26,796 bases of DNA. Origin: a virus. The stretch spans positions 1-26,796 of IMG/VR virus record IMGVR_UViG_3300036761_000881; one strand, 5' to 3'. The notes beneath the pieces were generated by a model that was given only the letters and a program-made list of their open reading frames with translations, ran no database searches and was not told where the DNA came from. Of the stretch, positions 1 through 26,796 are shown in pieces (position 1 is the stretch's first letter; each line of letters begins with the position of its first letter). The position numbers and the translations under genes are program-made.

Positions 1-2801
1 GATTCCTCAAGGTTGAGTAGGGGTGCCAACTTGCCTCGAACGTGCTGTGCGAGAATTTCCACCCGGCTGACCTTCTGAATCTCCCCGGCGGCCGTCATGG
101 TTTCGCCCAAGACCGCACGTACTATCGTGCGAAGGATTCCGCCGGTTCCTTCCGTCAGGTCGTAACGAGTGTCGCCAATGCGCACCGTCAGGAAATCGCC
201 CTTCAAGGGATTCAACCCCACCTCCAATCCGAACATCTTGGCGATGTAGGTCTGCGCCATGATGGAGACGATGGCTCCGGCGGTCCTCTTGATCCCGTGG
301 GATCGGATGACCGGATCGGTGCTGAGTGCGCCATAAAGTCGCGTGATGTTGCGCACTCGCGCGTACCACCAACGCATAGAGAAGATGGCGTTGGTGCCGA
401 CATCATAGATGCCCTTTAGGGCCTTGTACTTCGGCAACATGGCGCGGCCAGTCAGATCGCCCACGTCCTTGGCGATCCTCAGTTCTATCTCAGGGGTGAT
501 CTCGATACCCCTGGCTCGATACTCGCCCAACAGTCTGTCGCCTGACAGCGCTCGCGCCGTGTTGGTGGACAGGGCGGCGAATTGGTTGGCAAAGTGAACA
601 AGTTCGCGTAGCACCGGAACATACTCAGGAGCTCGCGCCCCGAATCCCTCCACTCGGATGCCGCTCTCGACCGGGCCGGATTCGACGAATTGGCCATGCC
701 GACGCAGCAAATCGTAGGATTCGGCCTCTTTCAGGTTCGCCATGCGCCGGTCGTACTGTTGCGGGTCAAAGGCAACTTCGAGCCCCGACCAGACTGACCT
801 GAGCCAATCAGCGGTTGGCCTCTTGAAGACGAGGAGCTTAGAGAGGTTGGCGATATCCTCATAGAGAACTGGACGCAACTGTCGGCCCGCGTAGGACACG
901 TCGGCGGTGGCCACCAACGTGCGCAGGGTATTTCCAATCTCAATGGGTATCTGAAAGACGGTGCTCCAAAGTTTCCCTTCGGATGTCATCGTATCCGTCA
1001 GGGCGTCGGCCACATCATCCCCGAAGACCTCTCGCATCAGGGCGACCTCGTTGGGTTGCGTGATTCGCCCTTCTTGCAGCTTCGTGATCGTCAGGTTGCC
1101 CCGGATTCGCTCGAAGGCTAGTTGTTCTCCAGGGAACGCTTCCCCGATACCCTGTCGGAGAAACTCCCACCCGGTAGGAGTCAGCCGGACTCGCAATTCG
1201 GGCGGAAGGATAATCTCCTCCTCCATGAGTGGACCCGAAAGGACTTCCATCGCCTTTTGTGATGCGAGTGCCCTGGTGTCGCCTTGTGCCAGATAGGAAT
1301 TCTCAAGTTCCGTGTACTCTGCGGTCCTTCTGGCTCTCTCCTTGCGGTAGACCTTCTCCATCTGGTAACGCGCCTGCTGTTGGTGTTTCAGTCCCTCAAG
1401 TAGTTGCGCGACAGCCTCGGCAGGAGTGCCGGGTTCCACCGGCATGGTCGGCGGGGAAAGAGTCTCCAGTTTCGTGGCCACGGTCTCCAGGGCCTCGGAC
1501 GGGGCGTCAGGAGCGAGCCGTTTGAGGTAGGTCCGCAAGGCGCGGGGTGCCCGCAAGACGCCCATGCCCAAGGGGACCAATCCCATGACAATGGCTTCCT
1601 CGTCCTCGCCGCCCAGTGCCTTGGTGGTCAGATACCCGGCCAACCCCTCAGTGATGATCTTGGCCCCAGTCCTGGCGATGGGGCTTGGTATCAGGTTAGC
1701 GACTCCACCAGCGACCTCGTAAGCCGTTCCGACAGCCAGACCATGCCCAGCTTGGCCGCCCGAAAATGCCGTGGCCAGTCCCATCGAGGCGATGTTCTGA
1801 GCCGCATTGGCGACTTGTCCCACCGCCGTGGGTTGGGCGATTGTCTGGGTTCCTAGCAACCGATGGGCCACGGCGATACTCATCAGCATGGGCACCAGTC
1901 CGGCGGCGGACTGGGCCATCTTCTGACTTGACGTGACAGCCGGATGGGTCAGATCAACCGTACCGGGTTCTCCGCTGGGTATCGACGTGATCGCGGCCAA
2001 TGCCGCTGCACCAAAGGTCTCCAGAAGGCCCCGCTCGGAATCCCGGCGCATTTCGGCGTAGGGTTCGGCGGCGACGGCGACCACGCGGTCGATCAGGTTG
2101 GGCGATACGCGCAATTGATTGATGCGAGTCAGGATGTCGTTCGATGACGGAGCGGATGTGATCGTGCCGAGGTCTTTGCCGATCCCGGAGACTTCCTCCA
2201 GCATGGCTTGCGCCAGTTTGTTGGGCGGTCCGGCGTGTGTGACGCCCGCCAGGATCAGCGAATCCGTCGTCACGACGGCGCGGACTTCCGGTATCTGGGT
2301 GTAGGCGTAGGCGACAGACGGGTGCATATCCAAGATGACGTTGGGAACGACGACCGGACCCGTGCTGAAATAGATCGGCTTTCCCCCGGCCTCGATTTCC
2401 GCTTGGGGTGGCGGATTGTCCGCGCGCTCCACCGTTCCGGTCTCTTGTGCCGCCTGCGCCTCGGTAATGAAGTAGGCCCCTCCATAGAGTGGCGGCATGG
2501 ACTTGGCCACGGCGGCTCGCTGGGTCTCTTGACGCTGTAGTCTGTCGGCCAACACGGCGCGACCAGCATCGTCCAACGGCATGCGCGTCCGCATCGCCAA
2601 CTCAAATGCTTCGCGCGAAATCTTGGCCGACTCGGCGGGCGCGGTCTGCCGCGTGACCATTCCCGAAAGCAGACTCGTCGGTTGCGAACCCACATAGACG
2701 CGCGTGTCGGCAGAAGTCTCATCCGGTAGCGGTGCCAACTCGACCAGGTTGGGGTCCGGCGGCGTCTCGCCGGGGAAGGGTTCAAGTTCGATCAGGGTCA
2801 C
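1..2801 (-). CDS. Large internal virion protein (gp16 position, LPD38-like), C-terminus beyond window
   Basis: One frame stays open for about 933 codons from a GTG at 2801 to the left edge, so the C-terminus is missing. The GTG overlaps the TGA of the upstream gene (GTGA) and has GGGGA seven bases ahead. Residues about 260-400 are rich in Ala/Gly/Ile and could hold membrane-active helices. The part encoded by about 900-20 resembles the LPD38-type region of giant phage virion proteins as I remember it: a TLRTLVATADVS stretch followed by RQ, then LTGRAMLP, then FSMRWWYARVRN, then RYDLTEGTGGILRTI. Position after the gp14- and gp15-like genes matches T7 gp16, an ejected core protein that in T7 carries a lytic transglycosylase. 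I see no transglycosylase motif in the visible part. The family call rests on motif memory; the virion role follows from gene order. Confidence 0.72.
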   Translation of the reverse strand, partial: MTLIELEPFPGETPPDPNLVELAPLPDETSADTRVYVGSQPTSLLSGMVTRQTAPAESAKISREAFELAMRTRMPLDDAGRAVLADRLQRQETQRAAVAKSMPPLYGGAYFITEAQAAQETGTVERADNPPPQAEIEAGGKPIYFSTGPVVVPNVILDMHPSVAYAYTQIPEVRAVVTTDSLILAGVTHAGPPNKLAQAMLEEVSGIGKDLGTITSAPSSNDILTRINQLRVSPNLIDRVVAVAAEPYAEMRRDSERGLLETFGAAALAAITSIPSGEPGTVDLTHPAVTSSQKMAQSAAGLVPMLMSIAVAHRLLGTQTIAQPTAVGQVANAAQNIASMGLATAFSGGQAGHGLAVGTAYEVAGGVANLIPSPIARTGAKIITEGLAGYLTTKALGGEDEEAIVMGLVPLGMGVLRAPRALRTYLKRLAPDAPSEALETVATKLETLSPPTMPVEPGTPAEAVAQLLEGLKHQQQARYQMEKVYRKERARRTAEYTELENSYLAQGDTRALASQKAMEVLSGPLMEEEIILPPELRVRLTPTGWEFLRQGIGEAFPGEQLAFERIRGNLTITKLQEGRITQPNEVALMREVFGDDVADALTDTMTSEGKLWSTVFQIPIEIGNTLRTLVATADVSYAGRQLRPVLYEDIANLSKLLVFKRPTADWLRSVWSGLEVAFDPQQYDRRMANLKEAESYDLLRRHGQFVESGPVESGIRVEGFGARAPEYVPVLRELVHFANQFAALSTNTARALSGDRLLGEYRARGIEITPEIELRIAKDVGDLTGRAMLPKYKALKGIYDVGTNAIFSMRWWYARVRNITRLYGALSTDPVIRSHGIKRTAGAIVSIMAQTYIAKMFGLEVGLNPLKGDFLTVRIGDTRYDLTEGTGGILRTIVRAVLGETMTAAGEIQKVSRVEILAQHVRGKLAPLLNLEE

Positions 2802-4279
2802 GGCTTAATCCCCATCAGTTTGCCGTCTCGCCAGACCGTCCACATCTGTCGGCGTTCGTCCCATGCGGCGTCGGGATGGTTGACGGGCGGGGTTCTGTTA
2901 GCGGTCGGGTTGGCTGTTGCACCGCCGCCTAGGTCCTTCATCCTCTGTTGGACCTCAGATGTCGGCATGTTCGACCATCGGGTCGCAAGTTCCGCCGCCG
3001 CCTGTACCGCGTCCACATCGGTCCAGTCGGGATGATCGGCAATCTCGCCGCGAAGGGCCTTCTGGTACAAGAAGACCAGCATCTCCGAATCCATGTCCGG
3101 GTGTCTGCCCCCCACGTCCGCGCGGAACACGGAGAGCATGGGTTTCACGGCCTCCCAACGGGCACTCTCTTTGCCGGTCTTGAGACGACTGACGTACTGT
3201 TGGTAGAGCGTCGATCCCGACTTGCCGGGGCCGAAGCTTCCCGCGTTCCACGCCGCCGCAAGGTCCGTCTCCAGCATCGGCTCGGAGACGCCGCCCAGGA
3301 CGCGCCCGATCCGTTCACTTAGGTCATTGAGCGCCTTGAAGTCGCGTTGACCCTGGCGCAGTTCGAAACGGTCGATCTGTTCCAACCACTTCTGATTCTG
3401 TGTGCCGTCGAATGAACTCTGGAACACGGCCTGTCGTTGTTGCTGGGCCACGTCATGCAGTTCCTGGTCCGACAGGTCGCGCTGGTAGGCGTCGTTCTGC
3501 TGGTCGGCTAGTCCGTTGGAGAAGTCGTTCACCTGGCCAGTGATGATCTTCTGGCGCAGTTGCTGGTCGCGGGCGGCGATCTGCTCCTTGGCTATTTCAG
3601 CGTGGGCCAGTCTGCTATCGACCTCATCGCCCATGCCCATGAAGTTCGCCATAGGCGCGATGGCATTGATGCCCTCGATGTCGCCCCTGGCGGCGTATGC
3701 TTGCAGCGCCGCTTGAAGAGGTTCGCGGGTCATCTCCTCGGTGAGACCGGCCTTCAACCACTCGCCGACCTGCCCCTCATAAAGGGCCAGACCGTCCGCC
3801 CGCTGGGCCGGGTCCAAGAGCATCACCGTCATGTTGGACTTTGCCCGCCAACCTTCCTGATACAGCCATTGCTTCTGACCTTGCTCGGCCTTCTGCTGGT
3901 ATCGGTTGGCGATATGCTCGAAGAACGCGACTTGGTTTTTGGGTTGGAGGGTCTTGTAGCGAGGCCACGCCAACAGAGTTCGCTCGACTGCCTGGCTGGC
4001 GGTCTCATTCCCTTGAATCTGGATACTATCCAGCGGAAAGTCTATCGCGTCTTTTGCGAGATCAAGTCGTTCGGCTTCCTCAAGTCGATTCTGATTCTTC
4101 TCGCTGAGTTGCCCCCACTGCTGCACCACGCCCCCGATGGCCCCGACGATCTTCTGGACCGCCGCGCCCATGTCGTAGGGTTCCGTGCGCTCCGGCATGA
4201 CGGGCCGAATGTCCGGCGCGTTTAGGTTGCCGATCTCCTGCCGGTACGATCCGATGCCCTGGTTGCGGGGTTCTGGCAT
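2798..4279 (-). CDS. Internal virion protein (T7 gp15-like by position)
   Basis: A 493-residue, mostly helical, Gln- and Ala-rich soluble protein without signal peptide or membrane segment. It has many Q-rich helical stretches (for example residues 230-300) and a C-terminal WTVWRDGKLMGIKP tail. It lies two bases after the gp14-like gene and overlaps the start of the giant virion gene, the same order as T7 genes 14-15-16, whose products form the internal core and are ejected into the host envelope to make the DNA conduit. T7 gp15 is longer (about 747 aa), so this is a short or diverged version. The assignment comes from order, size and composition rather than a diagnostic motif. Confidence 0.6.
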   Translation of the reverse strand: MPEPRNQGIGSYRQEIGNLNAPDIRPVMPERTEPYDMGAAVQKIVGAIGGVVQQWGQLSEKNQNRLEEAERLDLAKDAIDFPLDSIQIQGNETASQAVERTLLAWPRYKTLQPKNQVAFFEHIANRYQQKAEQGQKQWLYQEGWRAKSNMTVMLLDPAQRADGLALYEGQVGEWLKAGLTEEMTREPLQAALQAYAARGDIEGINAIAPMANFMGMGDEVDSRLAHAEIAKEQIAARDQQLRQKIITGQVNDFSNGLADQQNDAYQRDLSDQELHDVAQQQRQAVFQSSFDGTQNQKWLEQIDRFELRQGQRDFKALNDLSERIGRVLGGVSEPMLETDLAAAWNAGSFGPGKSGSTLYQQYVSRLKTGKESARWEAVKPMLSVFRADVGGRHPDMDSEMLVFLYQKALRGEIADHPDWTDVDAVQAAAELATRWSNMPTSEVQQRMKDLGGGATANPTANRTPPVNHPDAAWDERRQMWTVWRDGKLMGIKP

Positions 4280-4281
4280 GG

Positions 4282-4911
4282 TTATTCCTTGAAGAAACTG
4301 GCGATCTGGAGGCCCGTGGTCAGACCTCCCAAGCCGCCCATGAACCCTTCTATGAGTGGGTTGTAGGTGTTCGCCCGGATCGGTTGCATCCCACTGGCGG
4401 CGGCCCCGAACGAGTTGATGGCGTTCTGGTGGATGATGTTCGTGTTCATCAGCGTGTCGTAGTCCACCTGGCGCATCAGGGCCAGGGCGGTGCCTCCCAT
4501 GCCCATCCCGCTTTCCCCGGCCGTGACGCGAATCCGCGACTCGATAAGGTGAGACTGGTTGATGGCCTTGCGGCTCTCGTTGGTCTCCTGGGCGCGGATC
4601 ATCCGGTTCTGTGCCCCGATGGCTGTGCCCTGCGCGGCATACGCCTTCTTCATGTAGTCGGACTGGGCTGACGCCTGCTGGTATGATCCGTAGGCGGCCA
4701 TGCCGCCCATGCCAACGGTCCCTATCCCAATCAGGCTGGCCGCGTTAGCCGAAGCGAACGTGCCAAGGGCCGATGCCGCACCCGCTGCCGTACCCGACAT
4801 CCCCACGGGGGTCATCGCTCCTGCGATCAGAGCGCCCCAGCTTACCGGGTCGAACCACTCGGCTATCAGCCAACACCCGCCGATCAGGAGCAATAGCAGT
4901 TCAAGGCTCAT
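4282..4911 (-). CDS. Internal virion protein (T7 gp14-like)
   Basis: A 209-residue protein with a hydrophobic N-terminus (residues 3-40), a Gly/Ala/Met-rich middle (about 40-75) that could insert in a membrane, then a helical part containing YGSYQQASAQSDYMKKAY and NRMIRAQETNESRKAINQ. This layout (small-residue hydrophobic region followed by a Gln/Asn-rich helix) is typical of gp14-type proteins, which are ejected first and form the outer-membrane pore of the DNA conduit in T7. T7 gp14 is 196 aa, so the length fits. The stop codon lies directly before the ATG-adjacent end of the nozzle gene and two bases before the gp15-like gene, which indicates a single transcript. Confidence is good for the role, moderate for strict homology. 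Confidence 0.7.
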   Translation of the reverse strand: MSLELLLLLIGGCWLIAEWFDPVSWGALIAGAMTPVGMSGTAAGAASALGTFASANAASLIGIGTVGMGGMAAYGSYQQASAQSDYMKKAYAAQGTAIGAQNRMIRAQETNESRKAINQSHLIESRIRVTAGESGMGMGGTALALMRQVDYDTLMNTNIIHQNAINSFGAAASGMQPIRANTYNPLIEGFMGGLGGLTTGLQIASFFKE

Positions 4912-7900
4912 TTACATGGCCCTCGGTGCAAAGGTTGATTCCCACTCCCCGCAGACGATGGTGCAGGGCGTGTGGCCCGAAGCGGTGATCGTGACGGTCG
5001 TATCGTCGGCCTGGCCCCTGATCCAGAACCGCGTCTCCCCGCTGGCGTCCGTCAAACCGCTCGCAGGCGCGAACGATTCCGAATAGTCAGAGTAGCCGGA
5101 CATGGCGACTGTGACGGTGTAGGGGCCGCTCTCGTTGTGCGTCAGGCTCAGGACGTGCAGCATCATCCCGGCGTCCAGCACGGCCCCGCCCTCCCGGTCC
5201 CGCACATAGGGCCTGGAAAGAGTCAGGGACATCGTGTAGGGCCTTCCGACGTAACAGGGGTATGCTGAGTAGTCCCCGACGACGGTAAGGGTTGTGGCGC
5301 CCGCCCTGGTCGCTGTAAGGGCCACTCCGGCGGTCGTCGTCCAGCCCCCGCCCTTGACAACCTGCGTGGAGATCGGGTCGATGTGACCTTCCGTAAACGT
5401 GGTCAAACCCGTCCCGGCCGAGTAGACGCCCGTGATGAGCTTCCAGTTGTCCAGCAAGGGCATGAACGTGGCCCCCGTGGGTGCCGACTCCCGCTCCACG
5501 GGCAGGCGGAGGATGGTGTACTTGGTCCCGATCTGGGCCAGGACGTAGAGGTTGTTCCGCAGGGCGGCGATGTCCACGATGCGGTCGGCGTCGTCCAGGA
5601 CGATCCTGCTCCAGGAGGACTGGACCTTCTCGGTCCCGCGCCAGTAGGCCCGGTAGGCGTAGATGTGGTAGCCGTCTTCCGGCAAGACATAGAGGGTGTT
5701 GAAGTTGGGGCAAGCCTCCATCGAAACGACCGTGGCCGGGATGTAGCCCTCGACGTGGGCCGTGATGTCGGCGGCGACGGCGGCCAGGGCCGAATCATCG
5801 TACAGATACTCCCGAATCTGGGCACCGTGAGGCGCGATCGACGGGAAGTAGACCTGTGTGCCCATGACGGCGGGGCGCACCCCGATGATGGAATCGTAGC
5901 GCGTGCTGGCGGTCAGGGCGGCCGTGGAGGGACTGAGAACTTCCGGCGCATTCAACTCGAACTGCTGGCCCGCCAACGTGAAGATCACCATGCTCTTGCG
6001 GAAGGGGACCATGAAGTCGCCCAAGGTCACGCGGTCGGTGGACATGGCCTGGTCGATGGGGTCCGCGTCGGCGAGGTTGTCGGCATCCTCGATGAAGAAG
6101 TTGAAGAAGTCGCCCGCCGCCGACAGGACGATGTTCTCGCCTCCAACCAAGGCCAGACGGTTACGGTGGAAGGAGACATCGGAGAGTTTCTTGCCCACGA
6201 AGCTGGGCACGGGGTTGGTCACTTCATCGCCCGAGAGGCGCGGCTTCCAGTCGATCACGTCGATGTTGAACGTGGGGCCGCCCGACACCACGTCCACACG
6301 GGCGGCGTACTCTTCGGCAATCTCGGCCGCCGTCAGGGGCCGCTCGTAGATGGCTACCTCGTCCAGAGTGCCATTCCAGAACTTGCCCTGTATCTGGTTG
6401 TGGTCGCAACCTATGTAGACGTGGTGGATGTGATGCCAGGTGCGCCGGGCCTCAGCCGACGTGGCGGTGTCGGTCCCGTAAAGCGCCCCGTCGATGTAAA
6501 ACCGCACGCGCACTGAACCCGTCGCCGGGGTCACGGTCACTACCAGATGATGCCAATCTCCGTCCTGCAACTCGTAGGCGGGTTTACTATCGAGTGTCTG
6601 GCTGAGCGGTTCATCGGGTGTATCGAAGTACCCCCGACTGTAGCATCCCAGGTACCCCTGCGAATTGATGCTCACCCCGAAGAAATCGGAGTCCCATAGT
6701 ATCAGAGGCGCGGCTTCCTGCAATGAAATCATCCTGCGCGACGTGGCTGATGTATCCGAGGTCTTGAACCAGAGACTGATGCTCCAGCCGGTAGAGTGAA
6801 GGGTAGGCCCTAACTGGACAGGGTATACCTGTACGTCCACAGACTCAGTGGTCCCGTTAAACGTGACGGCCGTGTTGGCGTCGCCAGTAATAGCGCCTGC
6901 CACTCCTAGCGTAGGCGTGGCGGTGTAGGTTCCATCGCAATGTCCCATCTCGTCAACGGCGACGGTCCCGCTGGCTTCGCCCAGCCGCCAGTAGTAGTAA
7001 GGCATGTCGTCTACGATGATCTCGTTGTAGACCTTTTCCACGCCCCCTCCGGTTGACTCCCGCGTGATCTGGATCGGCATGGTCGTGGCGACGAACTGGG
7101 CCTGAGCCTGGTTGGGGGCTGGGTAGGAGGTCCAGCGCGTCAGGACGGATTTCGTGTCGGTAGTTGGCGCACCCGTCCCTGCCGTAACCACGTCGCCCGA
7201 CCCGCCGGTGTAGAAGGGGCGTGTACTGGTTGACCAGTTGTACCCGCTGTCCGGGGCGGCGATAGCATTGGCCGGGAACGTGCAGACCGATCCCCGCCAC
7301 GGCCCGGTGATCGTGAAGTAGCCCGCCGATAGTCCCGTGTACGTCCAACTGACGCAACCATCGGCGCAACCCGAAGCGAGAAGGGCAGCCTGGAACTGTA
7401 GGGCGACATCATGCATCGAGGTCATCGTGGCCCGCTGCATGTCCAGGGTGACGGCGAACTGCCGACCGATGGCCGTAATCGCCACGTCCGTTGCCACTGC
7501 CGCGCCCGCCGTAGCCGACAGAATCAGCAGGTCGTCGTTGGGGCGCGAGGCGATGTTGTGCCAACCCGCCGTCACACCTGTTCCAGAGGCTATCAGCACT
7601 TGGTCGCCCGCAGAGAAGGCGTATCCATCGAACCCAGCAGCCGAAACCAGGGAAAAGGCCGCGTCGGCATAGGTGGCCGTCCCGCCAAACAACCAAGCTC
7701 CCACTCCGCCCGTGCAGGCGATCCCGGTTCCATTCGACCCAGGTCCCCCAGAGATTTCGATCACGTCCGCGCTTATCCTGGCCGTGACGGTGTAGGATGT
7801 GCCCGCGAACCCTCCCCCCGTCAGGGGATATATCTTGTCCCCGCTCTGCCAGGCGTAGCTGGTGAAGGCTCCCGTGGCCGTCAGGCGACTGGTGGCGGCA

Positions 7901-8841
7901 ACCCATGTAGCGCCGGTGAAGACGGTCGGCACGCCGGCAATCACCGGATACACCGTCGCCCCCGTGGCGACAATGCTGTCGGTCATCCGCAGACTGTCAT
8001 TGTCCACCTTCTCCGCGATGTGGTGCCAGCCAAGAACCGCGTTGGTCAGGGAGTACAGTTGGTCGCCCGCCTCAAAGGTGTAGGCTGTGAAGCAGGCCGA
8101 CCCGTACAAAATCTTCGCCTGGGGATGGTATAGCACGCTGGTCAGCGAGAGGGTCCGCCGGTAGGCGGCCAGCTTGAACCCGCCGGGGTTCTGCGTGTCC
8201 CCGTCGTATTCCGCCGCCGTGTCAAAGCTGTCCGACACGGCGGGCAGTTTCAAGGTCGGGAACGTGCCGACGCTCGTGGCGTCACCCGGTTCGTACTTGT
8301 AGTACCCCGCGACGTGCCCGCTCTCGGAATCGGCGCGGGTCTTGTGGTAGGTGTTGGCGGTGGGAGTAAAGGACGACATGACATCGAAGTCGTCGAACTC
8401 GCTGGTCACGGTGTACGACGCGCTGGACTCGACCGCCGTGGTGACGGTGGTGTTCACCAGAATCGTGTAGTCGGCCATCGACACCAGGCGCATTTCTGCC
8501 GCCGTGGCGTTGTTGGCGTCCAGGTACGTCTGTGCATCCGGGGAGGTCGTCAGCGTCGCCTCCACGCCCGCCAGGGTGAAGATGCGGATCGTCGAGTCGC
8601 CGTAGACCATCAGGTACTGCTCAGTCGCGTCCCGGTCGATGGGGTGCAAATGATAGAGTCCGTCAGCCGTAAGACCCGTGATCTCGAACAGGTGCTCCGT
8701 GCCGGGCCGCTTGGAGGCGTCGTCGCGGACACTGAACAACACGTTGTCCGCCGCCGTCACCTGATTCAGAGGTCTTAAACTCATCGGCTGAGTGCTAACG
8801 CCCCCAAAGAGCGTCGTGATCGAATCCCTGCGATTTACCAT
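4912..8841 (-). CDS. Tail tube protein B (nozzle, T7 gp12-like) with LamG and repeat insertions
   Basis: About 1309 residues against about 794 for T7 gp12. The conserved gp12 core is split. The N-terminus has LFGGVSTQPMSLRPLNQ (gp12 proteins begin with a GG(I/V)SQQP-like motif), and the second half has PSFVGKKLSDVSFHRNRL followed by SAAGDFFNFF, a hallmark of the family. Three related modules of about 75 aa occur around residues 250-460, each with F-x-x-Y-x-(F/W)-x-x-GD(Q/K). Residues about 610-850 look like a LamG jelly-roll: YYYWRLGEASGT at the start, ISLWFKTSD, GDWHHLVVTV, YIDGALYGT and LDEVAIYERPLTAAEIAEEY at the end. The C-terminus has an Ig-like beta domain. The start is placed at the ATG at 8841 because homologs begin near it and AGGG/GGGAG lie upstream; an in-frame ATG at 8859 would overlap the previous gene. 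The LamG fold may bind host surface glycans. Confidence 0.88.
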   Translation of the reverse strand: MVNRRDSITTLFGGVSTQPMSLRPLNQVTAADNVLFSVRDDASKRPGTEHLFEITGLTADGLYHLHPIDRDATEQYLMVYGDSTIRIFTLAGVEATLTTSPDAQTYLDANNATAAEMRLVSMADYTILVNTTVTTAVESSASYTVTSEFDDFDVMSSFTPTANTYHKTRADSESGHVAGYYKYEPGDATSVGTFPTLKLPAVSDSFDTAAEYDGDTQNPGGFKLAAYRRTLSLTSVLYHPQAKILYGSACFTAYTFEAGDQLYSLTNAVLGWHHIAEKVDNDSLRMTDSIVATGATVYPVIAGVPTVFTGATWVAATSRLTATGAFTSYAWQSGDKIYPLTGGGFAGTSYTVTARISADVIEISGGPGSNGTGIACTGGVGAWLFGGTATYADAAFSLVSAAGFDGYAFSAGDQVLIASGTGVTAGWHNIASRPNDDLLILSATAGAAVATDVAITAIGRQFAVTLDMQRATMTSMHDVALQFQAALLASGCADGCVSWTYTGLSAGYFTITGPWRGSVCTFPANAIAAPDSGYNWSTSTRPFYTGGSGDVVTAGTGAPTTDTKSVLTRWTSYPAPNQAQAQFVATTMPIQITRESTGGGVEKVYNEIIVDDMPYYYWRLGEASGTVAVDEMGHCDGTYTATPTLGVAGAITGDANTAVTFNGTTESVDVQVYPVQLGPTLHSTGWSISLWFKTSDTSATSRRMISLQEAAPLILWDSDFFGVSINSQGYLGCYSRGYFDTPDEPLSQTLDSKPAYELQDGDWHHLVVTVTPATGSVRVRFYIDGALYGTDTATSAEARRTWHHIHHVYIGCDHNQIQGKFWNGTLDEVAIYERPLTAAEIAEEYAARVDVVSGGPTFNIDVIDWKPRLSGDEVTNPVPSFVGKKLSDVSFHRNRLALVGGENIVLSAAGDFFNFFIEDADNLADADPIDQAMSTDRVTLGDFMVPFRKSMVIFTLAGQQFELNAPEVLSPSTAALTASTRYDSIIGVRPAVMGTQVYFPSIAPHGAQIREYLYDDSALAAVAADITAHVEGYIPATVVSMEACPNFNTLYVLPEDGYHIYAYRAYWRGTEKVQSSWSRIVLDDADRIVDIAALRNNLYVLAQIGTKYTILRLPVERESAPTGATFMPLLDNWKLITGVYSAGTGLTTFTEGHIDPISTQVVKGGGWTTTAGVALTATRAGATTLTVVGDYSAYPCYVGRPYTMSLTLSRPYVRDREGGAVLDAGMMLHVLSLTHNESGPYTVTVAMSGYSDYSESFAPASGLTDASGETRFWIRGQADDTTVTITASGHTPCTIVCGEWESTFAPRAM

Positions 8842-8848
8842 TCGCGCC

Positions 8849-9439
8849 CTAACTCCCATTCACGTCAGCAGCACTCTTTTGTGCGCTGGCTTTCACCATC
8901 ACATGCACATGCACTTGACCACTAGTCCACGTGCCATTATTAGTCATTAGTTTTAAGGACAAGGTGCCATTACTCTTCAAGATAAGCTGTGTGCTGATAG
9001 CGGCCTCTGTAACATTTACGCTGTCTAATGCCACTAACAACTTTTCTGTTGCATACGTCGAGCCGACTCTGCATACAAAAGGTAGAATCCCGTCGTTCTC
9101 ATTAGCAGTCCATACGACTGTGTTGGGTGTTGATCCGCTTGTAACAGCAACATCACATTCTATAACCCTTCCCCTCCAATCATTCGCGTCTATAGCATAG
9201 TAAGTAGCATGTGCTACAGGGGTAGTGAAAGCTACCCATTTGTCTAGTTGTAGAGCATAAGGAGAAGTACCATCTTTTCCATCCACTCCGTCCACTCCGT
9301 CCGCGCCCGCTGGGCCAGTCTCCCCTGTTGCTCCCGCCGTCAGAGCAAGACTGTCTATCACGTCCCGGATGGTGCGGAGTTGCCGGTCGGCCGATTGGAG
9401 GGTGTCCGTCCGCTCAACCGGCTTGCGAAACAGACTCAC
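8849..9439 (-). CDS. Collagen-like virion protein
   Basis: 196 residues starting at a GTG that overlaps the stop of tail tube A (GTGA). Residues 1-35 form a helical N-terminus (SLFRKPVERTDTLQSADRQL), residues about 37-58 are seven Gly-X-Y triplets (GATGETGPAGADGVDGVDG and KDG), and the remainder is a beta-rich, Thr/Asn/Val domain ending near HVHVMVKASAQ. Short collagen triplets joining a helical base to a beta C-terminal knob are known in trimeric phage fibres, so a small trimeric fibre or fibre adaptor at the tail is a reasonable inference. The part at about 8880-9250 is visibly more A/T-rich than all neighbouring genes, which suggests recent acquisition. T7 has no gene between 11 and 12. 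Confidence 0.7.
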   Translation of the reverse strand: MSLFRKPVERTDTLQSADRQLRTIRDVIDSLALTAGATGETGPAGADGVDGVDGKDGTSPYALQLDKWVAFTTPVAHATYYAIDANDWRGRVIECDVAVTSGSTPNTVVWTANENDGILPFVCRVGSTYATEKLLVALDSVNVTEAAISTQLILKSNGTLSLKLMTNNGTWTSGQVHVHVMVKASAQKSAADVNGS

Positions 9440-10233
9440 CGCGACCTCGGCATAGACCCCGACCGGCCCATGGCCGACCGGAAGTAGTCACTATCCATCA
9501 GGTTCAGGTCCGCCCGGTCCCCGTCCTCCTGGGCGGCGCGCATCCGCACTTCGCCCAGCCGGGTCTTGATGTCGTCGGGTACGGGCATGCGCTGGTTGGT
9601 GCAGAAGGCAAGGGTTGCCTCCACCGTCACCAAGTCAGCCATCGTCGGCGGCAACTGCGTGAACGCCAGCAGGCGCACCTGCTGGACCGTCAAGACGGCA
9701 TCGAACGTGAAGGTGTTGTCGGTGATGTTGTAGAATCGGCCCCCACGGTTGGTCACGTCGGGTTGACCCGTGCTGACCGGATCGGCGCTCAGCACGTCGG
9801 CGTCCATGTAGATGAACCCCTCGGTGACGGCGGCTGCCGTGGTGCCCGTGACCGTCGCTCCGCTCACCGCCCCGGTCAGGACCTGCCCGCCAGTAAAGGC
9901 GGCGGTGGTGTCGTCCAACTCGGTAAGGTATACCGAGCCGTCGTAGAGGTAGCCGAAGCGGCCGGTGGCCCCGCTGGTCTTCTCCGTGACGGTCTCCCCG
10001 GCCAGGAACGTGCCGGTGGGCGGATCAACGTAAACGATCGACGTGTCGGGCGGCGGCAGTTCAACGTCCGTCTCCGTGTTGCAGTGCCATCCCCTGGCCT
10101 GGATTCGTCGGTTGTAGTCCGCAACCAATCCGGCGGCAATCGCCGCCTGGCTTCCGTCACTGGCCGTGTAGGTCGTCACCGGCCTCATACCGATGGCCTG
10201 AATCATCTGGTTGACCGCCTCAAGTAGCGTCAT
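9436..10233 (-). CDS. Tail tube protein A (T7 gp11-like adaptor)
   Basis: 265 residues against 196 for T7 gp11. The N-terminus (LLEAVNQMIQAIGMRPVTT) and the middle (VADYNRRIQARGWHCNTETDVEL) match the start of gp11-type gatekeeper proteins (ring joining portal and nozzle), as do GGRFYNITDNTFTF and the C-terminal YFRSAMGRSG. The extra length is explained by an insertion at about residues 70-135 made of a repeated unit (GTFLAGETVTEKTSGATG and later GGQVLTGAVSGATVTGT). SD sequence TAGGAG lies upstream of the ATG. The gene precedes the collagen-like and nozzle genes, in the T7 order 11-12 except for the inserted gene. High confidence. Confidence 0.88.
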   Translation of the reverse strand: MTLLEAVNQMIQAIGMRPVTTYTASDGSQAAIAAGLVADYNRRIQARGWHCNTETDVELPPPDTSIVYVDPPTGTFLAGETVTEKTSGATGRFGYLYDGSVYLTELDDTTAAFTGGQVLTGAVSGATVTGTTAAAVTEGFIYMDADVLSADPVSTGQPDVTNRGGRFYNITDNTFTFDAVLTVQQVRLLAFTQLPPTMADLVTVEATLAFCTNQRMPVPDDIKTRLGEVRMRAAQEDGDRADLNLMDSDYFRSAMGRSGSMPRSR

Positions 10234-10242
10234 GTATGGCTC

Positions 10243-11892
10243 CTACGTGGGGTTTGGACGCGAAGTGTCCGAGGCGTCCTCGTCGGGGTACGGAGGGACG
10301 GCAGGCGACGGGTGAGCCGACGAGCCGCTGACGGGATAGGGATAGACGAGTTCCGGGGTAGCGTACACATGCGCTGGCGGGATTTCGTCGGGATCGACCG
10401 CCTCGCCTTCCTCCGCCGCCCCGCCCAGTCCGGCCACTACGGTCGTCAGGGTAAAGGACGTGTACCCGGCGGTGGTCAAGGCCGCCGCGATCCGGGCGTC
10501 CATCGGCCAGGGCCAGAGATCATCGGCGGTCAGCACGCCATCGACATACCGCTTGGCAATCGTGGCACCAAGGCCATCGACGGCGGCCAGGATGCCGGAA
10601 CCGGATGTGACCAAACGCAACCCGCTGGTGGACCATGCCGAGTGAATGTGACTGGGTACGGAACTGATCCCTGTAATGGCATCAGTGGTCAGGTCGGTAG
10701 GGGTTTCGTGCGAATCGGTATAGAGGGTAAAGGCCGGGATGGCCTTCTCGGTGTATGCGGCGCAGTTGACCAGACTGATGTGATCGAGATTGATACAGAA
10801 GAACAGACCGGAACCTGCCCTCAGTGTACATCGGTCGGCGGTGCGAACCAAGGCAATGCAACCCTTGAGCGTCGTGTAGGTGTCGTGGACGGCGCTGGCG
10901 TCGCACGAGAAGAGCCCATAGGGTTGATCGACGCCGTAATTGGTGTAGACCCTCGGTGTCGTTTCGCCTGCGTAGATATAATCGTTGCCATCAGTTTGCA
11001 GGGTGTAACTGGTAGGCATGGCCTCGCCCGTCCACATCGCCACACAGTTCTCAAAGATGCAGTGGTAGTTGTTGTACGCGATGGTGAACGGCATCTTGGG
11101 ACCGACGCAGGTACTGCCCATCCAGATTCCAAGGCATCGGCGGAAGGTGGTGTAGTCGCCGCCCTGAGAGGCGCTGAAAATCTTGCGGCCTTTGCCGAAT
11201 CCGCAGCAGTCCTCAAAGAGGTTGTACCGGCTGACGCCTACCCCGCTCGCGCCGGCGCTAAACAAGACTGCGTTCCAATCGATCGGCGCGTCCCAGGCGC
11301 AGCACCGCTTGACTTGGCAGTAGTTGCAGTTGAAGAGCCGTGCCACGGTGGTATTCAGCGACTTGCGGAAGTTGATCCCCTCGACGTTCCAGTAGTCCAC
11401 CCCGGACAGGAGCATGGGTTGGCGAAGACTCTGGCCGTCGATCAAGACCGCCCCGTCATTTGTGGCCTGGATCGTGATGGGATTGGCGAGAGTGCCATGC
11501 ACCTTGTCCACGACGGTCAACATGCGGGTCACGCCCGTGTAGGTGCCGTCGGCAAGATGGATCGTACAAGATGGCACGGCCAGTGCAATGCAGGCCACTG
11601 GTGTGCCAGGAGTTCCAGCCGTTAGACAGTTGCCCGTACCGTCAGAACTGGCGTAGAGATGGAGCATGGTTGTAACCTCTGGTTGCGTGGCGGGCAGGGT
11701 CTCGGGCAGTGTGGCCGGCACTGTGGTCGGTTGGGTGACGGGTTGAGTCGCGGGCGCGGTCGTGGGAATCGTCGTCGGCTGGGCAACTGGCGGCTTCACC
11801 ACAATCGGCTTGTGCTTGGCGGGTCGGTGCATCGCAACGGATGTGCATCCCAACAGCAGACAGACCAACCACGTCAGATGTTTCGGGTGCAT
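10243..11892 (-). CDS. Beta-helix protein with lipoprotein signal and Pro/Thr linker
   Basis: 549 residues. Residues 1-20 form a signal peptide with a lipobox-like LLGC (Cys16): MHPKH, then LTWLVCLLLGC. Residues about 30-75 are a Pro/Thr/Gln linker with repeated ATQP and VTQP. From about 76 (MLHLYASSDGTGN) there is a right-handed beta-helix type domain to about residue 400, with LADGTYTG, ITIQATNDGAVLIDGQ and DYWNVEGINFRKS stretches, and unusually many Cys (NCNYCQVKRCCAW, EDCCGFGKG). The C-terminus is Pro-rich. SD GAGGAT precedes the ATG. Beta-helix folds in phages are mostly tail spikes or polysaccharide-degrading enzymes, and the place just before the tail genes suits a spike, but a lipoprotein signal is not expected for one. 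Residue 76 is an alternative start that would give a conventional spike. No active site is identified. Confidence 0.65.
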   Translation of the reverse strand: MHPKHLTWLVCLLLGCTSVAMHRPAKHKPIVVKPPVAQPTTIPTTAPATQPVTQPTTVPATLPETLPATQPEVTTMLHLYASSDGTGNCLTAGTPGTPVACIALAVPSCTIHLADGTYTGVTRMLTVVDKVHGTLANPITIQATNDGAVLIDGQSLRQPMLLSGVDYWNVEGINFRKSLNTTVARLFNCNYCQVKRCCAWDAPIDWNAVLFSAGASGVGVSRYNLFEDCCGFGKGRKIFSASQGGDYTTFRRCLGIWMGSTCVGPKMPFTIAYNNYHCIFENCVAMWTGEAMPTSYTLQTDGNDYIYAGETTPRVYTNYGVDQPYGLFSCDASAVHDTYTTLKGCIALVRTADRCTLRAGSGLFFCINLDHISLVNCAAYTEKAIPAFTLYTDSHETPTDLTTDAITGISSVPSHIHSAWSTSGLRLVTSGSGILAAVDGLGATIAKRYVDGVLTADDLWPWPMDARIAAALTTAGYTSFTLTTVVAGLGGAAEEGEAVDPDEIPPAHVYATPELVYPYPVSGSSAHPSPAVPPYPDEDASDTSRPNPT

Positions 11893-11922: not shown

Positions 11923-12723
11923 TCAGGTGCCGACGCCCAACAGGGCCAGCGTTCCGGCTCCGGTTCCATCCGTGAACATGCTGACGACCGCACTCACCAC
12001 GAACGCGCCTTGGTTGGCGGCTGTCTTGGCGCGAATCTCGTACTGATAGACGTGGTCGGCGACTACCGTGTCGTCCGTCTTAGTTGTGGCGGCCGCCGTG
12101 GCCGTGGACCATGCGGCGAAGCCCGCCCCGTTGTCGCTGCGATACAGGTCATACCCCGTCCGGTCGGCGTCGGCGGCGCACGCCCACGTCAGATCGATCT
12201 GCGAGCCGTTGCGGGTGGCGATGAAGTCGTAGGGCCGATACAGCCCGACGCCGTAGATGTTCGCCGTCAAATCAGGGTAAACATCGTCAATGGTCGCGGT
12301 CAGAGCAACGGGAGTAGCGCCGGAGACATAGGTTTGTGTGGCTGCTGTGACGAGTTCCGCATCCCCGCCGCTATCCACATACTTGGGCCGCACGGTGCTA
12401 TCGGCATGATAAACAAACCAGTACGTTGTCAGGGCAGTTCCGCTGAACAGGGTATCCAGGGTAAAGGTATACCATGTCTGCACCGTAGCATGGTAGGCGA
12501 CGCTTACCTCATCCGAGTCCACCACACGATCATGCGGCACGTGCGCTGTTTCCGTATACACCCCTGCCGTTACCTTAGCCGTGCCGGATGCGGCCTTGCG
12601 CAGAAGAATCTTGATGGCCCACAGGTCAGCATCGCTGGTGAGGAGGAACGCGGCGCCGGCCGGCTTGGCAGCCACAATTGGTTCTTCCGTCCCGTCGCCT
12701 GTGGTATGTCCGAAGTTTGCCAT
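11923..12723 (-). CDS. Structural protein with beta-sandwich and fibronectin type III domain
   Basis: 266 residues. The N-terminal ~155 residues are beta-rich (AAFLLTSDADLWAIKILLR, YTFTLDTLFSGTALTTYW), like a jelly-roll found in phage and bacterial surface proteins. Residues about 165-250 read as a fibronectin type III domain: DFIATRNGSQIDLTW, then GYDLYRSDNGAGF, then YQYEIRAKTAANQG, with the expected W and Y-x-Y-x-(I/V)-x-A pattern. The C-terminus is a short Gly-rich tail. No signal peptide is seen. The gene starts seven bases after the 31-aa gene and lacks a close strong SD (GGGAGG lies 14 bases ahead). FnIII domains in virions usually sit on exposed surfaces and bind weakly to cells. It may be a fibre or decoration protein; the exact role is not known. 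Confidence 0.6.
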   Translation of the reverse strand: MANFGHTTGDGTEEPIVAAKPAGAAFLLTSDADLWAIKILLRKAASGTAKVTAGVYTETAHVPHDRVVDSDEVSVAYHATVQTWYTFTLDTLFSGTALTTYWFVYHADSTVRPKYVDSGGDAELVTAATQTYVSGATPVALTATIDDVYPDLTANIYGVGLYRPYDFIATRNGSQIDLTWACAADADRTGYDLYRSDNGAGFAAWSTATAAATTKTDDTVVADHVYQYEIRAKTAANQGAFVVSAVVSMFTDGTGAGTLALLGVGT

Positions 12724-12729
12724 GCTACT

Positions 12730-12825
12730 TCAATGCCTCCCGCCGCACAGGGCGATCACCATCGCCGCGAAGATGACCAGAGCCAGGGCGACGGCCCAGA
12801 AGGTGCGCTGGGCTGTGGGGATCAT
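12730..12825 (-). CDS. 31-aa single-pass membrane protein
   Basis: The product is MIPTAQRTF, then a hydrophobic helix WAVALALVIFAAMVIAL, then CGGRH. The ATG overlaps the stop of the lipoprotein gene (ATGA), and AGGAGGT is placed eight bases before it, one of the strongest ribosome sites in the window. The next gene follows seven bases after the stop. The overlaps with the holin-like and lipoprotein genes make a lysis or membrane role likely, for example as a holin partner, but nothing in the sequence identifies it. Confidence 0.55.
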   Translation of the reverse strand: MIPTAQRTFWAVALALVIFAAMVIALCGGRH

Positions 12826-13091
12826 GGTGTACCTCCTGGCTGGGTTGTCGGGTCGTCGCCGGGGTCGGGCAAGGCCCACCAGCCGGCGGGGATCGTGGCT
12901 CGCATTTGGACCCGCACCCCGTCCGGCTCAGTTTCGATCCAGACCCTCGCCTTCACATCCTTGGCAAGCTGGACCGGATCACCCTGGGGGACTATGACGG
13001 CTTCTCGCCTCACGCACCCGCTTGAGCAGGCGCTCGCGGCGAGAAGGATCGCGGCGAGCCACAGTAGCAGTCGATGGTTTCTGTGCCTCAT
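12822..13091 (-). CDS. Small lipoprotein, outer-membrane spanin-like candidate
   Basis: 89 residues. A basic start (MRHRNHR), a hydrophobic core (LLLWLAAILLAA) and a lipobox-like ASAC with Cys22 suggest a type II signal peptide; a second Cys is at 26. The mature part has VPQGDPVQLAKDVKARVW, then an AGWWALPDP segment and a DDPTTQPGG tail. Phage proteins with the pattern V-P-x-G-x-P-V-x-L and IP-x-GW-x-x-P exist next to lysis genes, as far as I recall. The start codon lies inside the 57-aa gene in another reading frame, the arrangement known for Rz1 in Rz. It could serve as an outer-membrane spanin subunit, but it lacks the usual Pro-rich Rz1 character over most of its length. Confidence 0.62.
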   Translation of the reverse strand: MRHRNHRLLLWLAAILLAASACSSGCVRREAVIVPQGDPVQLAKDVKARVWIETEPDGVRVQMRATIPAGWWALPDPGDDPTTQPGGTP

Positions 13092-13152: not shown

Positions 13153-13325
13153 GCCGGGTTCGCATCCTTAGCCAGCAACAGGCCAATGGCCACGGTGATT
13201 GCGCCAATGACCACGGGCCAGTCGGGGTTGGTCAACGGATCGCCATCGATCATGGCCTTCACGGCGCTACTCAGGGCGATAACAGCGGTCAGGATGCCAG
13301 CAACAGTCGTCTTCCAGTTCTTCAC
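13149..13325 (-). CDS. Holin-like small membrane protein
   Basis: 58 residues from a GTG overlapping the previous stop (GTGA), with GGAGA seven bases ahead. Sequence features: NWKTTVAGILTAVIALSSAV (first hydrophobic helix), a polar turn DGDPLTNPDWP, and VVIGAITVAIGLLLAKD (second helix). The NWKTT start, a central D-G-D-P-x-T-N-P-D-W and an L-x-x-AKD end are a pattern that recurs in small phage proteins usually annotated as holin-like. Two helices with a short loop suit a class II-type holin that makes holes in the inner membrane. Activity is inferred from topology and neighbours. Confidence 0.62.
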   Translation of the reverse strand: MKNWKTTVAGILTAVIALSSAVKAMIDGDPLTNPDWPVVIGAITVAIGLLLAKDANPA

Positions 13326-13630
13326 GGTGTTCTCCTAGCTTGGGGTTCGCTCTTGTCCAGCTTGGCTTCGATCCGTAGCATCGCCGATTCGATGCGATTG
13401 ATGCTCTTGTCCAGGGATTCCAAGGTAGCTGCCCGCTTAGCCCCGCCCTGCTCCTCGATGCGCAAGCGCTCGTCCAGCTTGCGTGTCGCCTCTTGCTGTG
13501 CCAGTATGGCGTCGCCCTGGCCCCTGCCGCAGAGCAATCCCACGGTCACCTGAGCGCCCAACAGCAGGCCGATAACCCAGCAGGCGAGTTTCAGGTGCTT
13601 GGTGCCGCAACCGTTGGTCGAGGTCATCAT
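13322..13630 (-). CDS. Membrane-anchored coiled-coil protein (inner spanin-like topology)
   Basis: 102 residues: a short N-terminus with a basic patch (KHLK), one transmembrane helix (about 15-34, ACWVIGLLLGAQVTVGLL), then a charged coiled coil (ATRKLDERLRIEEQGG, ESLDKSINRIESAMLRIEAK). N-in topology with a long outer coiled coil is that of inner-membrane spanins (Rz, T7 gp18.5). It is directly upstream of, and overlaps, the holin-like gene. SD AAGGGG precedes ATG ATG. It is a better inner-spanin candidate than the 57-aa gene. Function remains an inference from topology and place. Confidence 0.6.
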   Translation of the reverse strand: MMTSTNGCGTKHLKLACWVIGLLLGAQVTVGLLCGRGQGDAILAQQEATRKLDERLRIEEQGGAKRAATLESLDKSINRIESAMLRIEAKLDKSEPQARRTP

Positions 13631-14378: not shown

Positions 14379-15071
14379 TTAGGCGATGGTGCCCAGTTGG
14401 AGGTAGGTCGGGCCGGTGACGCCCGCGATCTTGACGAGCATCTTGTGCGTCTTGGTGAAGTTGCCACTTGCAGAAGTCGTCAGGAATCCGGCCACATCCT
14501 CAAAGTTGATGAAGTTGGCCATGCCCGCGCCCTGGTAGACGGTGAACAATCCGTCGATGATGGCACCTGACGAGGGGTTGGCGTTGTTGGAGAACCGGGC
14601 CATGTACTGACCGCCGCTGGACACGACATCGCAATGGGCGTCCACCCACAGCGTCCAGGTACGAGCCAGCACGTCCACGCCGGTCGGGTGGTCGCTGCAC
14701 CCGTACAGGGCTGTGTTGATGCAGGTCGTCCCGGCCTGCACCGCCGAGGGCTGCGTGTAGGCTTGAATGGCCTGCAAGCCGCTCGCGGCTGCGATCCCGC
14801 TGGAGGCCGACACGTTCAGGCCCACGGAGCAGGCGGTCGCGTCGTTGGCGTGGGCGGCTGAACACTTCATGCGAATCTGGAGGCCCCAGGCCGTCCCGGT
14901 CGTGGCGGTGGACTCCATCATGAACTTGAGGCCCACCCTCTCGGCCGTGGTGCCCAACTGAATCCAGTCACCCGATTCGCCGAACTTGATGATCCCGTTG
15001 ACGACGTTCGGGTCCGAATCGACGCAGAACTTCCAAGTCGATCCGATGTACTCGCGGTTATATCGTGGCAT
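14379..15071 (-). CDS. Probable capsid-associated or fibre protein
   Basis: 230 residues, beta-rich, without signal peptide. It starts MPRYNREYIGSTWKFCVD and contains WIQLGTTAERVGLKFMME, AWGLQIRMKCSAAHA, TWTLWVDAHCD and GPTYLQLGT. Eight or so Cys are spread through it, more than in typical virion proteins. It follows a strong terminator-like hairpin and has AAGGAGCCTCAAC before the ATG, a leader that closely matches those of the 183- and 72-aa genes. A virion surface role is inferred from composition and place. Family not recognised. Confidence 0.5.
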   Translation of the reverse strand: MPRYNREYIGSTWKFCVDSDPNVVNGIIKFGESGDWIQLGTTAERVGLKFMMESTATTGTAWGLQIRMKCSAAHANDATACSVGLNVSASSGIAAASGLQAIQAYTQPSAVQAGTTCINTALYGCSDHPTGVDVLARTWTLWVDAHCDVVSSGGQYMARFSNNANPSSGAIIDGLFTVYQGAGMANFINFEDVAGFLTTSASGNFTKTHKMLVKIAGVTGPTYLQLGTIA

Positions 15072-15096
15072 GTTGAGGCTCCTTGTGGAAACAAAG

Positions 15097-15126
15097 GGGG
15101 CGCGGACTCGTTGGAATCCGCGCCCC
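15097..15126 (-). terminator. GC-rich hairpin followed by T-run
   Basis: Perfect 10-bp arms (GGGGCGCGGA at 15097-15106, TCCGCGCCCC at 15117-15126) with a 10-base loop. On the minus strand the stem is followed by CTTTGTTT. It lies between the 183-aa and 230-aa genes. It fits a factor-independent terminator, probably partial since genes continue downstream. Confidence 0.6.
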
Positions 15127-15133
15127 GGTCCGG

Positions 15134-15685
15134 CTAGTAGTCGCCGAGGTTGACCCAGGTGATCGTGACGTTGCCGGTGGCTCCGATGATGGAAGTCTCG
15201 TCGGTGTGCGCGTCGGTAATGGTGCCATTCAGGATGATCGGAACGGCGGTGGTCGTTCCGTCAAACTGCGCTGATGCCGCCAGGGCGGCTCCTACCGCCG
15301 TGGTCAGGTCGTCGGCGGTAGTAGCCGTCCGAGGGAGGAAACTGACATCGGCGGCGTCGGTCAGGTCGCCATCGGTGCAACTGATGGTGCCAATGCCGAA
15401 GTGACCGTCAGACGCATTGGTCAGATCCCCCTCCGTTGAGATCAGGGGGAACGCCAACGAGGCAGTGACGCCCAGGACCAGGATGCGGCCCTGGGGGAAC
15501 GTGCCCAACTGAACGCTTCCGAATCCGACGCCAGTGGCACCGACGATGGTGATCGGCGTGGCGGCCAGATTGAACGTGGTGACGTGCAGGTTGGCCGCTC
15601 CGCGTTCGTCAATGCCGATGGTGGCGGCAATCGCGGCGGTGGCATTGGGAGTCAGGGGACCGTCCATAGTAGCTGAACGAGGCAT
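15134..15685 (-). CDS. Capsid-proximal virion protein (decoration-like)
   Basis: 183 residues, beta-rich, no signal. It starts MPRSATMDGPLTPNATAAI and ends GNVTITWVNLGDY. The segment VQLGTFPQGRILVLGVTASL, the FLPRTATT segment, ASAQFDGTTTA and the TWVNLGDY end are features I recall from a small protein often encoded near podovirus capsid genes. That supports a head-associated or decoration role, but not a defined function. AAGGAGCTTCAC precedes the ATG. The gene is bracketed by hairpins on both sides. Confidence 0.6.
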   Translation of the reverse strand: MPRSATMDGPLTPNATAAIAATIGIDERGAANLHVTTFNLAATPITIVGATGVGFGSVQLGTFPQGRILVLGVTASLAFPLISTEGDLTNASDGHFGIGTISCTDGDLTDAADVSFLPRTATTADDLTTAVGAALAASAQFDGTTTAVPIILNGTITDAHTDETSIIGATGNVTITWVNLGDY

Positions 15686-25218: not shown

Positions 25219-25449
25219 ATGATCGGCACAACAATCACCCGTGACCAGAGCGAGGCCATCGAGTCGGCATACCAGCGGATCAAGCTGGCAAGGATCGAGG
25301 AAGGCAAGACGCACCAGGCGCACAAGGCCGCCAAGGAAGACTTGGCTGACGCAGAAGAGGTGATGTTCAACCTCTGCCGCGACATCTACGAGCCGAACCT
25401 GTTCACCGGCGAGAAGGTGGACCCGGAGACGGGTGAAGTGCAGCCATGA
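25219..25449 (+). CDS. 76-aa helical, charged protein
   Basis: Product MIGTTITRDQSEAIESAYQR, then a long charged helix (LARIEEGKTHQAHKAAKE, DLADAEEVMFNLCRDIY) and an end with [15 protein letters not shown]. Coiled coil likely. SD GAGGGG is nine bases before the ATG. Its stop overlaps the ATG of the lysozyme-like gene. No known family. Confidence 0.6.
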   Translation: MIGTTITRDQSEAIESAYQRIKLARIEEGKTHQAHKAAKEDLADAEEVMFNLCRDIYEPNLFTGEKVDPETGEVQP

Positions 25450-26273
25450 AGACCCTTGCAGGTGCCAGATTGGCAACGAACATGCCCCGGCAGCCGGAAG
25501 CCCTGGAGTCCTGCCTCTGGGAAGCGCCGGCCTTGGGTGGACCCACACCGCGAACAGACACCGGCGAGACAATCCCTGTGGGGCATGCAGCGACCGAATT
25601 GCGTGAGGGCATGGTGGCCACCAGCCTGATTCCGGCTTCGCAACCGGCGGTCGCGTTCTCCCTTCGCCTGATGCTGCGTACCGCCCTGCTCACCGTCGCC
25701 CTGGGCTTAGCCCTGTGCGTGGCCGGGGGCATGATGCACTTACCCTTCATGGAGGTGCCGAACAATGGCACGGAAGCCAATTTTGCCACGTCTGCCCAAG
25801 GCGCACAAGGCGCTCTGGACAGTGGTGTACCTAAACATGACCCGTCGCTGGAAGATCGAAGGGCGATACCCCACACGGAGTTCCGTCAGGGCGCACGAGT
25901 GGGGCTTGGACTTTCAGACCAATCTGTACGTCCGCATCATCCCCCCGTTGCGATGCAGTCACTCTTCGACGCGATCCGCCAAGTCGAAAGCCAAGGCAAC
26001 GACCGCGCGGTCGGGGACGGAAATCGTAGCAAAGGCCCGTACCAGTGTGGCCGCGCGGCTTGGGAAGATGGAGGCGGCGATCCGGCCAGATATGACCGGC
26101 TGGTGTGGAACCGGGCGGCGACGGAGCGGGTGATGCTGGCCTACTGGCAGCGGTACGGAGCGGTGACGGATGAACAGAAAGCCCGCTGCTGGAACTCCGG
26201 GCCGAAGTGGCGGGACCGTTACCCGCTGACGGACGACTACTGGCGGCGCGTGCAGAAGGTAATGGAGCGATAG
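25446..26273 (+). CDS. Membrane-anchored lysozyme-like (muramidase) protein
   Basis: 275 residues with ATGA overlap to the previous gene. Residues about 71-95 form a hydrophobic anchor ([20 protein letters not shown]), and residues about 172-275 a lysozyme-like domain: [18 protein letters not shown] with the likely catalytic Glu181, then [36 protein letters not shown] and [14 protein letters not shown]. The E-S-x-x-N-x-x-A-x-GDG-x-x-S-x-GPYQ pattern recalls i-type lysozyme/transglycosylase relatives. It probably cuts peptidoglycan, as endolysin or for entry. The linker at about residues 105-168 reads like a non-coding frame, while another frame with a strong SD covers it (see 25765-26133), so the gene may really be two. 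An endolysin in the divergent early arm, away from the holin-like gene, is unusual. Confidence 0.6.
25765..26133 (+). CDS. Overlapping frame, possible N-terminus of the lysozyme protein
   Basis: Starts at an ATG with GGAGGT eight bases ahead, in the +1 frame relative to the surrounding gene. The first 60 residues ([20 protein letters not shown], then [16 protein letters not shown] and [17 protein letters not shown]) look like a normal protein with G/C in third positions, whereas the other frame does not. From residue 61 on it looks like a shadow of the lysozyme domain. At 25941-25947 the sequence C CCC CCG would, after a -1 slip, continue directly into the lysozyme frame ([15 protein letters not shown]). 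So the product may be a 60-residue head fused to lysozyme by frameshift, or the C-run may be one base short in the assembly. Confidence 0.45.
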   Translation: MARKPILPRLPKAHKALWTVVYLNMTRRWKIEGRYPTRSSVRAHEWGLDFQTNLYVRIIPPLRCSHSSTRSAKSKAKATTARSGTEIVAKARTSVAARLGKMEAAIRPDMTGWCGTGRRRSG

Positions 26274-26275
26274 CC

Positions 26276-26796
26276 ATGTGCGAAACTTTCAGCGGCATCG
26301 GAACACGAACGGGCCAGTTGTACACGTCGGACGTGACTGACTCGCATAACGATCTGTTCGACATCTACAACCTGCGCGAGACGCAGTGTACGCCTGTCGA
26401 GTTTATGCTCGGGGAAGACCCGACAGATGTGTCTACCTACACATTCCGATTCGACGCCGAGCGCCCCGCCTGGGCCGATGATGAATGGGTCGAGCGGATC
26501 AAGGCCGAGTGGACCCGCCGCATCGAGAAGATGATCGTCCGAGACGAGCGGAAGATTCTGGCTGGAGGGTGCTGGATACTGGCGCCGGGGAGTAGGATTC
26601 ATAAACTCATCAGGGCGCGAATCGTCGTCGCCCAAAAAGCCGACCTTCGCGGAGCCGACCTTTGCGGAGCCGACCTTCGCGGAGCCAACCTTCGCGAAGC
26701 CGACCTTCGCGGAGCCGACCTTCGCGGAGCCGACCTTTGCGGAGCCGACCTTCGCGGAGCCAACCTTCGCGAAGCCGACCTTCGCGGAGCCGACCT
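26276..26796 (+). CDS. Pentapeptide-repeat protein, C-terminus beyond window
   Basis: 173 complete codons, running off the right edge. SD GGAG is eight bases before the ATG. The N-terminal ~120 residues ([50 protein letters not shown]) match a phage domain I recall, which starts MC-x-x-F-x-x-x-x-x-x-x-G and has D-S-H; its function is unknown. From about residue 122 come at least ten A(D/N)L(R/C)(G/E) units, which fold as a four-sided right-handed helix. Such proteins can mimic DNA and protect or inhibit gyrase, or act as scaffolds. Which applies is unknown. Its place after the lysozyme gene suggests the same transcript. Confidence 0.75.
26639..26796 (+). repeat. 15-bp tandem repeat with 75-bp higher order
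   Basis: Ten full copies of GCCGACCTTCGCGGA and variants, plus part of an eleventh. Copies 1-5 (26639-26713) are identical base for base to copies 6-10 (26714-26788), variants included. The array runs off the window. Confidence 0.95.

Follow-up and report, generated by a model that had tools for sequence, protein, structure and literature searches.

The gene analysed here raises the question of where a phage beta-helix protein acts: in the virion, among whose genes it lies, or on the infected cell, as its N-terminal export signal would imply. The window, that is the whole stretch of 26,796 nucleotides analysed, is a 26.8-kb fragment of a T7-like podovirus, with genes for a single-subunit RNA polymerase, a head-tail connector, a capsid protein and homologues of gp11 and gp12. 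The beta-helix gene belongs to the tail cluster, as the first-pass annotation had placed it: the gp11 homologue lies 9 bases downstream, and the capsid and head-tail connector genes lie upstream (Table 1).

Table 1. Features of the beta-helix gene and its neighbours, in window coordinates.
Feature	Position	Strand	Basis or remark
Exported beta-helix protein, whole gene, 549 aa	10243..11892	-	ORF read from 11892 to 10243
Signal peptide and lipobox MHPKHLTWLVCLLLG/C16, residues 1-16	11845..11892	-	PS51257 rule
Pro/Thr/Gln linker, residues 33-75	11668..11796	-	Sequence; P, T or Q at 28 of 43 residues
Met76, first residue of folded domain, possible second start	11665..11667	-	GAGGT upstream
Right-handed beta-helix up to LWPWP module, residues 76-458	10519..11667	-	Alignment, AF2, VIA-align
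C-terminal LWPWP module, residues 459-491	10420..10518	-	Family alignment
Pro-rich C-terminal tail, residues 492-549	10246..10419	-	Low model confidence
gp11-like tail tubular protein, directly downstream	9436..10233	-	Pfam (Tube), PHROG 446
Preceding gene	11923..12723	-	Weak choice-of-anchor R match, below cut-off
Small second lipoprotein, 89 aa, amid short membrane proteins	12822..13091	-	Lysis-like cassette
Membrane protein, 102 aa, charged helical-looking tail	13322..13630	-	Lysis-like cassette, by eye

The N-terminus of the ORF, MHPKHLTWLVCLLLGC, satisfies the PROSITE lipoprotein rule. This rule, PS51257, was coded as a signal sequence with a lipobox, Cys at position 15-35 and Lys or Arg within the first seven residues. 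LLGC occupies residues 13-16, so that Cys16 and Lys4 fit the rule, and none of the six residues preceding the lipobox is charged. The signal is close to the lower length limit of the rule and has a single Lys, and an alternative SPI-type cut after Ala20 was also scored. The gene is missed when the lipobox is screened at a tighter hydrophobicity threshold, and the PROSITE rule was used for the counts. Among 695 non-overlapping ORFs of at least 300 aa, from 163 T7-like loci collected via tail and portal genes, none satisfied the lipoprotein rule and one satisfied the Sec rule, a home-made heuristic and not SignalP. Since none of these large T7-like ORFs fits the lipoprotein rule, the signal is not something that such ORFs show by chance. 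The leader itself is coding-like (GC3 of 0.73 over codons 1-75, against 0.75 for the remainder), and the ATG lies 30 bases past the preceding gene with GAGG ahead of it. The lipobox and the Pro/Thr/Gln linker that had been described from the sequence were both confirmed (Table 1). Export of the protein is a well-supported prediction from sequence, and we infer its function below.

Relatives of the protein form a small family in unrelated phages, defined here by a common helix core and the module LWPWPNE near the C-terminus; the window protein has both marks, the core L.ED.W.WG..R...RR and the LWPWP module. The vir555 protein P0002 (BK063671; host field of the record, Methanomicrobiales) is 29% identical over 196 columns and is encoded after a tail gene. 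It carries an N-terminal signal peptide and has a C-terminal LWPxP stretch in common with the window protein. For further members, viral contigs were scanned for LWPWPNE-coding DNA and with a two-sequence profile, and tblastn linked the family independently (E = 8e-6 for vir555 and 2e-13 for L183). At 20-26% identity, the window protein stands furthest from the other members, and used alone it detected no relative in viral_contigs or genome_contigs. No relative was found on plasmids, a portal profile gave no match in genome_contigs and hence no host link, and no description of an LWPWP beta-helix family was found in the literature.

Export signals are present in seven of the nine distinct members whose N-terminus can be read (L178 is cut off). 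Six are Sec/SPI-like (vir555, L166/L182, L170, L173, L181 and L186, with L179 the same record), and that of the window protein is SPII. Two members have no signal, L171/L169 and L167, the true start of the latter being uncertain. L173 also has a Thr/Pro-rich linker between signal and beta-helix domain. In a quick tree, L173 paired with the signal-less L167 (support 1.0) and L170, which has a signal, with L171, which has none (support 0.84). Because members with and without a signal pair in the tree, the leader has been gained and lost within the family, and export is a recurrent and swappable trait of it. The earlier suggestion that a host gene became joined to a spike is unnecessary, as the leader is a module present in some members of a phage family and absent from others. 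Since distant relatives mostly carry export signals, these proteins probably act on the infected-cell surface and not in the particle. In L186 (4793-6391, minus strand), the signal is followed by a thrombospondin-type-1-like stretch, SEWVEVAGEWSACVNGTQTHTISR (by eye), and then the beta-helix; a Pro linker also precedes this domain.

The gene was absent from the portal and tail relatives L003, L004, L006, L011 and L017. The nearest of these (L003, portal identity 57%) carry different genes in the same slot, which argues that the beta-helix gene is accessory; the gene preceding it in the window was not homologous to the L003 gene of that slot. L003 also has, amid its late genes, a glycosyltransferase-like gene (14428-15249, by eye), a possible surface modifier, and L006 has a large repeat protein of choice-of-anchor D type (6739-8934, by eye) in an accessory slot before gp11. 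Between the capsid and beta-helix genes of the window, the short membrane proteins and the small lipoprotein look by eye like a lysis cassette, and comparison of this cassette with PHROG gave no informative match. The 89 aa lipoprotein begins MRHRNHRLLLWLAAILLAASACSSGC and by eye resembles L005 7989-8288 (common ...DVKARV...); it is perhaps a conserved lysis-region lipoprotein. At the right end of the window, an opposite-strand ORF of 275 aa (25446-26273, plus strand) had a weak transglycosylase-like match below cut-off, and a tandem repeat of 15 bp in 10.6 copies (26638-26796) closes the record.

The fold was examined by sequence and by model. Pfam Chondroitinas_B matched at 24.7 bits (cut-off 24). 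AF2 without an alignment was unusable (pLDDT 31); with the nine-sequence alignment it gave a pTM of 0.64, with pLDDT about 90 over the first 40 residues from Met76 and the last 70 residues unreliable. The best sequence and Foldseek matches were PL6 lyases and Pel9A, and the VIA-align Z was 26 against BT_1002, about 23 against PL6 and 20-21 against phage tailspikes. The beta-helix assignment of the first-pass annotation therefore holds, from Pfam, AF2 and VIA-align alike. As Z is high for PL6 and for tailspikes, the fold cannot separate an enzyme from a spike. Across the nine aligned members, E227, D228, R236, R251, R252 and Y273 are invariant. The high Cys count that had been remarked on is also real: the protein has 20, two of them within the signal region, and several repeat at one coil position (FEDCC, FRRC, FENC, LKGC and LVNC), which would resemble a buried Cys stack.

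The start of the modelled domain bears on a further reading, in which one gene makes two products: the lipoprotein, translated in full from Met1, and a virion spike of 474 aa that starts at Met76 and lacks the leader. Translation from residue 76, raised in the first-pass annotation, is possible: Met76 is where the domain begins (its first ten residues have a pLDDT of 90) and GAGGT stands at Shine-Dalgarno (SD) distance before it; in the alignment, Met76 also coincides with the start codon of L171, which has no leader. A core-containing 5-base SD match was found at one of 140 internal ATGs, the one at Met76. Of 129 internal in-frame ATGs, however, 8 have an SD core ahead of them, and the amino acids that lead up to Met76 yield the motif by themselves with probability 0.71. 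Because the local amino acids explain it, the motif is weak evidence for a second start. A leaderless product from Met76 is possible from the sequence, and we regard the two-product gene as rather unlikely.

Alternatively, the protein may be a plain virion tailspike, made from Met76 only or with a functionless leader. Its position before gp11 and the virion genes adjoining it are in keeping with this, as are the collagen-like and LamG-like genes in the same region of the window phage and of related phages (by eye in the latter). Podovirus tailspikes (Sf6, phi29 gp12, Fri1 gp49) have the generic beta-helix in common with the window protein (VIA-align, above), and in L171 and L167 the same domain lacks a signal and may be a virion part. 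Such tailspikes, however, are parts of the virion that lack export signals and have virion-binding regions. The N-terminus of the window protein is a signal and a linker, and the protein had no PHROG match. On this reading, it would have to be a coincidence that the 75 leader codons are open, have a coding-like GC3 and encode a lipobox and a linker, and signals are clear in relatives. We consider a tailspike improbable.

PL6 lyases (chondroitinase B and alginate lyases; PF14592) are the closest enzymes. They have the right-handed beta-helix in common with the window protein, match its N-terminal coils in sequence, and are secreted by bacteria much as the window protein carries an export signal. 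The window protein differs in its LWPWP module and in being encoded in a phage late region. We take the Ca-binding Glu and the catalytic Lys to be positions in the block GExEIISxKS, following the usual assignment. All nine members have Arg in place of the first Glu of this block, and the Lys is replaced, though the alignment is weak there, so that PL6 chemistry is unlikely in this family. An exported PL6-type polysaccharide lyase that would aid egress by degrading capsule or matrix, suggested by the top sequence and Foldseek matches, is accordingly also improbable, given these substitutions and a match that is good over the N-terminal coils only.

The reading we prefer, at about even confidence, is that the gene encodes a lipid-anchored, probably glycan-binding envelope protein, made late, that would alter the surface of the infected cell. 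The protein would be exported by the Sec pathway and then lipidated at Cys16, and the Pro/Thr/Gln linker would act as a spacer between the membrane and a glycan-binding beta-helix. Made late, it would mask or modify surface glycans, so that progeny could be released without re-adsorbing to the cell or its debris; other phages might be blocked as well. The signal with its lipobox, the linker, the fold, the late-gene position and the export signals of relatives are seen in the sequences; lipidation, membrane site, glycan binding and purpose are what we infer. In E. coli, an Asp after the lipobox Cys bears on the membrane destination of a lipoprotein. The window protein has no Asp there, which would suggest outer-membrane display if this E. 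coli rule holds in its host. Display on the infected cell, as first proposed, gains support in its export and envelope anchoring, from the protein's own signal and those of distant relatives; as to purpose, egress or glycan modification is as possible as the blocking of other phages.

Similar functions are known or proposed for other viral proteins. Re-infection is blocked by Llp and Rtp45, two lipoproteins of phages (PMC9586334, PMC12685063). Superinfection-exclusion lipoproteins (T5 Llp, Cor and Rtp45) are phage-encoded and act on the infected-cell envelope, as we propose for the window protein; those of the Llp/Cor type inactivate the phage receptor. They are periplasmic and of small size, about 6 kDa for Rtp45, whereas in the window protein the linker carries a large beta-helix. 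Archaeal viruses likewise encode secreted, sheath-like proteins that carry a signal peptide and are proposed to change the surface and help egress; unlike the window protein, these have an amyloid-like fold, 159-288 aa and archaeal hosts (PMC11576556).

In L183, L181/L189 and L165, genes near the beta-helix gene also encode signal peptides, making three to five such genes together, which suggests a possible late exported cassette. L183 has three signal-bearing genes, with a holin-like gene shortly downstream of the beta-helix. L189 (a contig of L181) has five genes with N-terminal signals in about 6 kb (2039-8215), and L165 (BK063671, an archaeal virus record) four signal-bearing genes in a row past a tail gene (821-6063). 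Tentatively, several unrelated tailed viruses may keep a late cassette of Sec-exported surface proteins that rebuilds the infected-cell surface before lysis, the window lipoprotein being its T7-like version, and the domain may switch between exported and virion use by exchange of its N-terminus.

The usual annotation of a phage beta-helix protein is virion tailspike or depolymerase, and a family with export signals in most members would be misannotated. Such a family would indicate phage proteins that work on the outer face of the infected cell, in egress, re-adsorption or superinfection exclusion.
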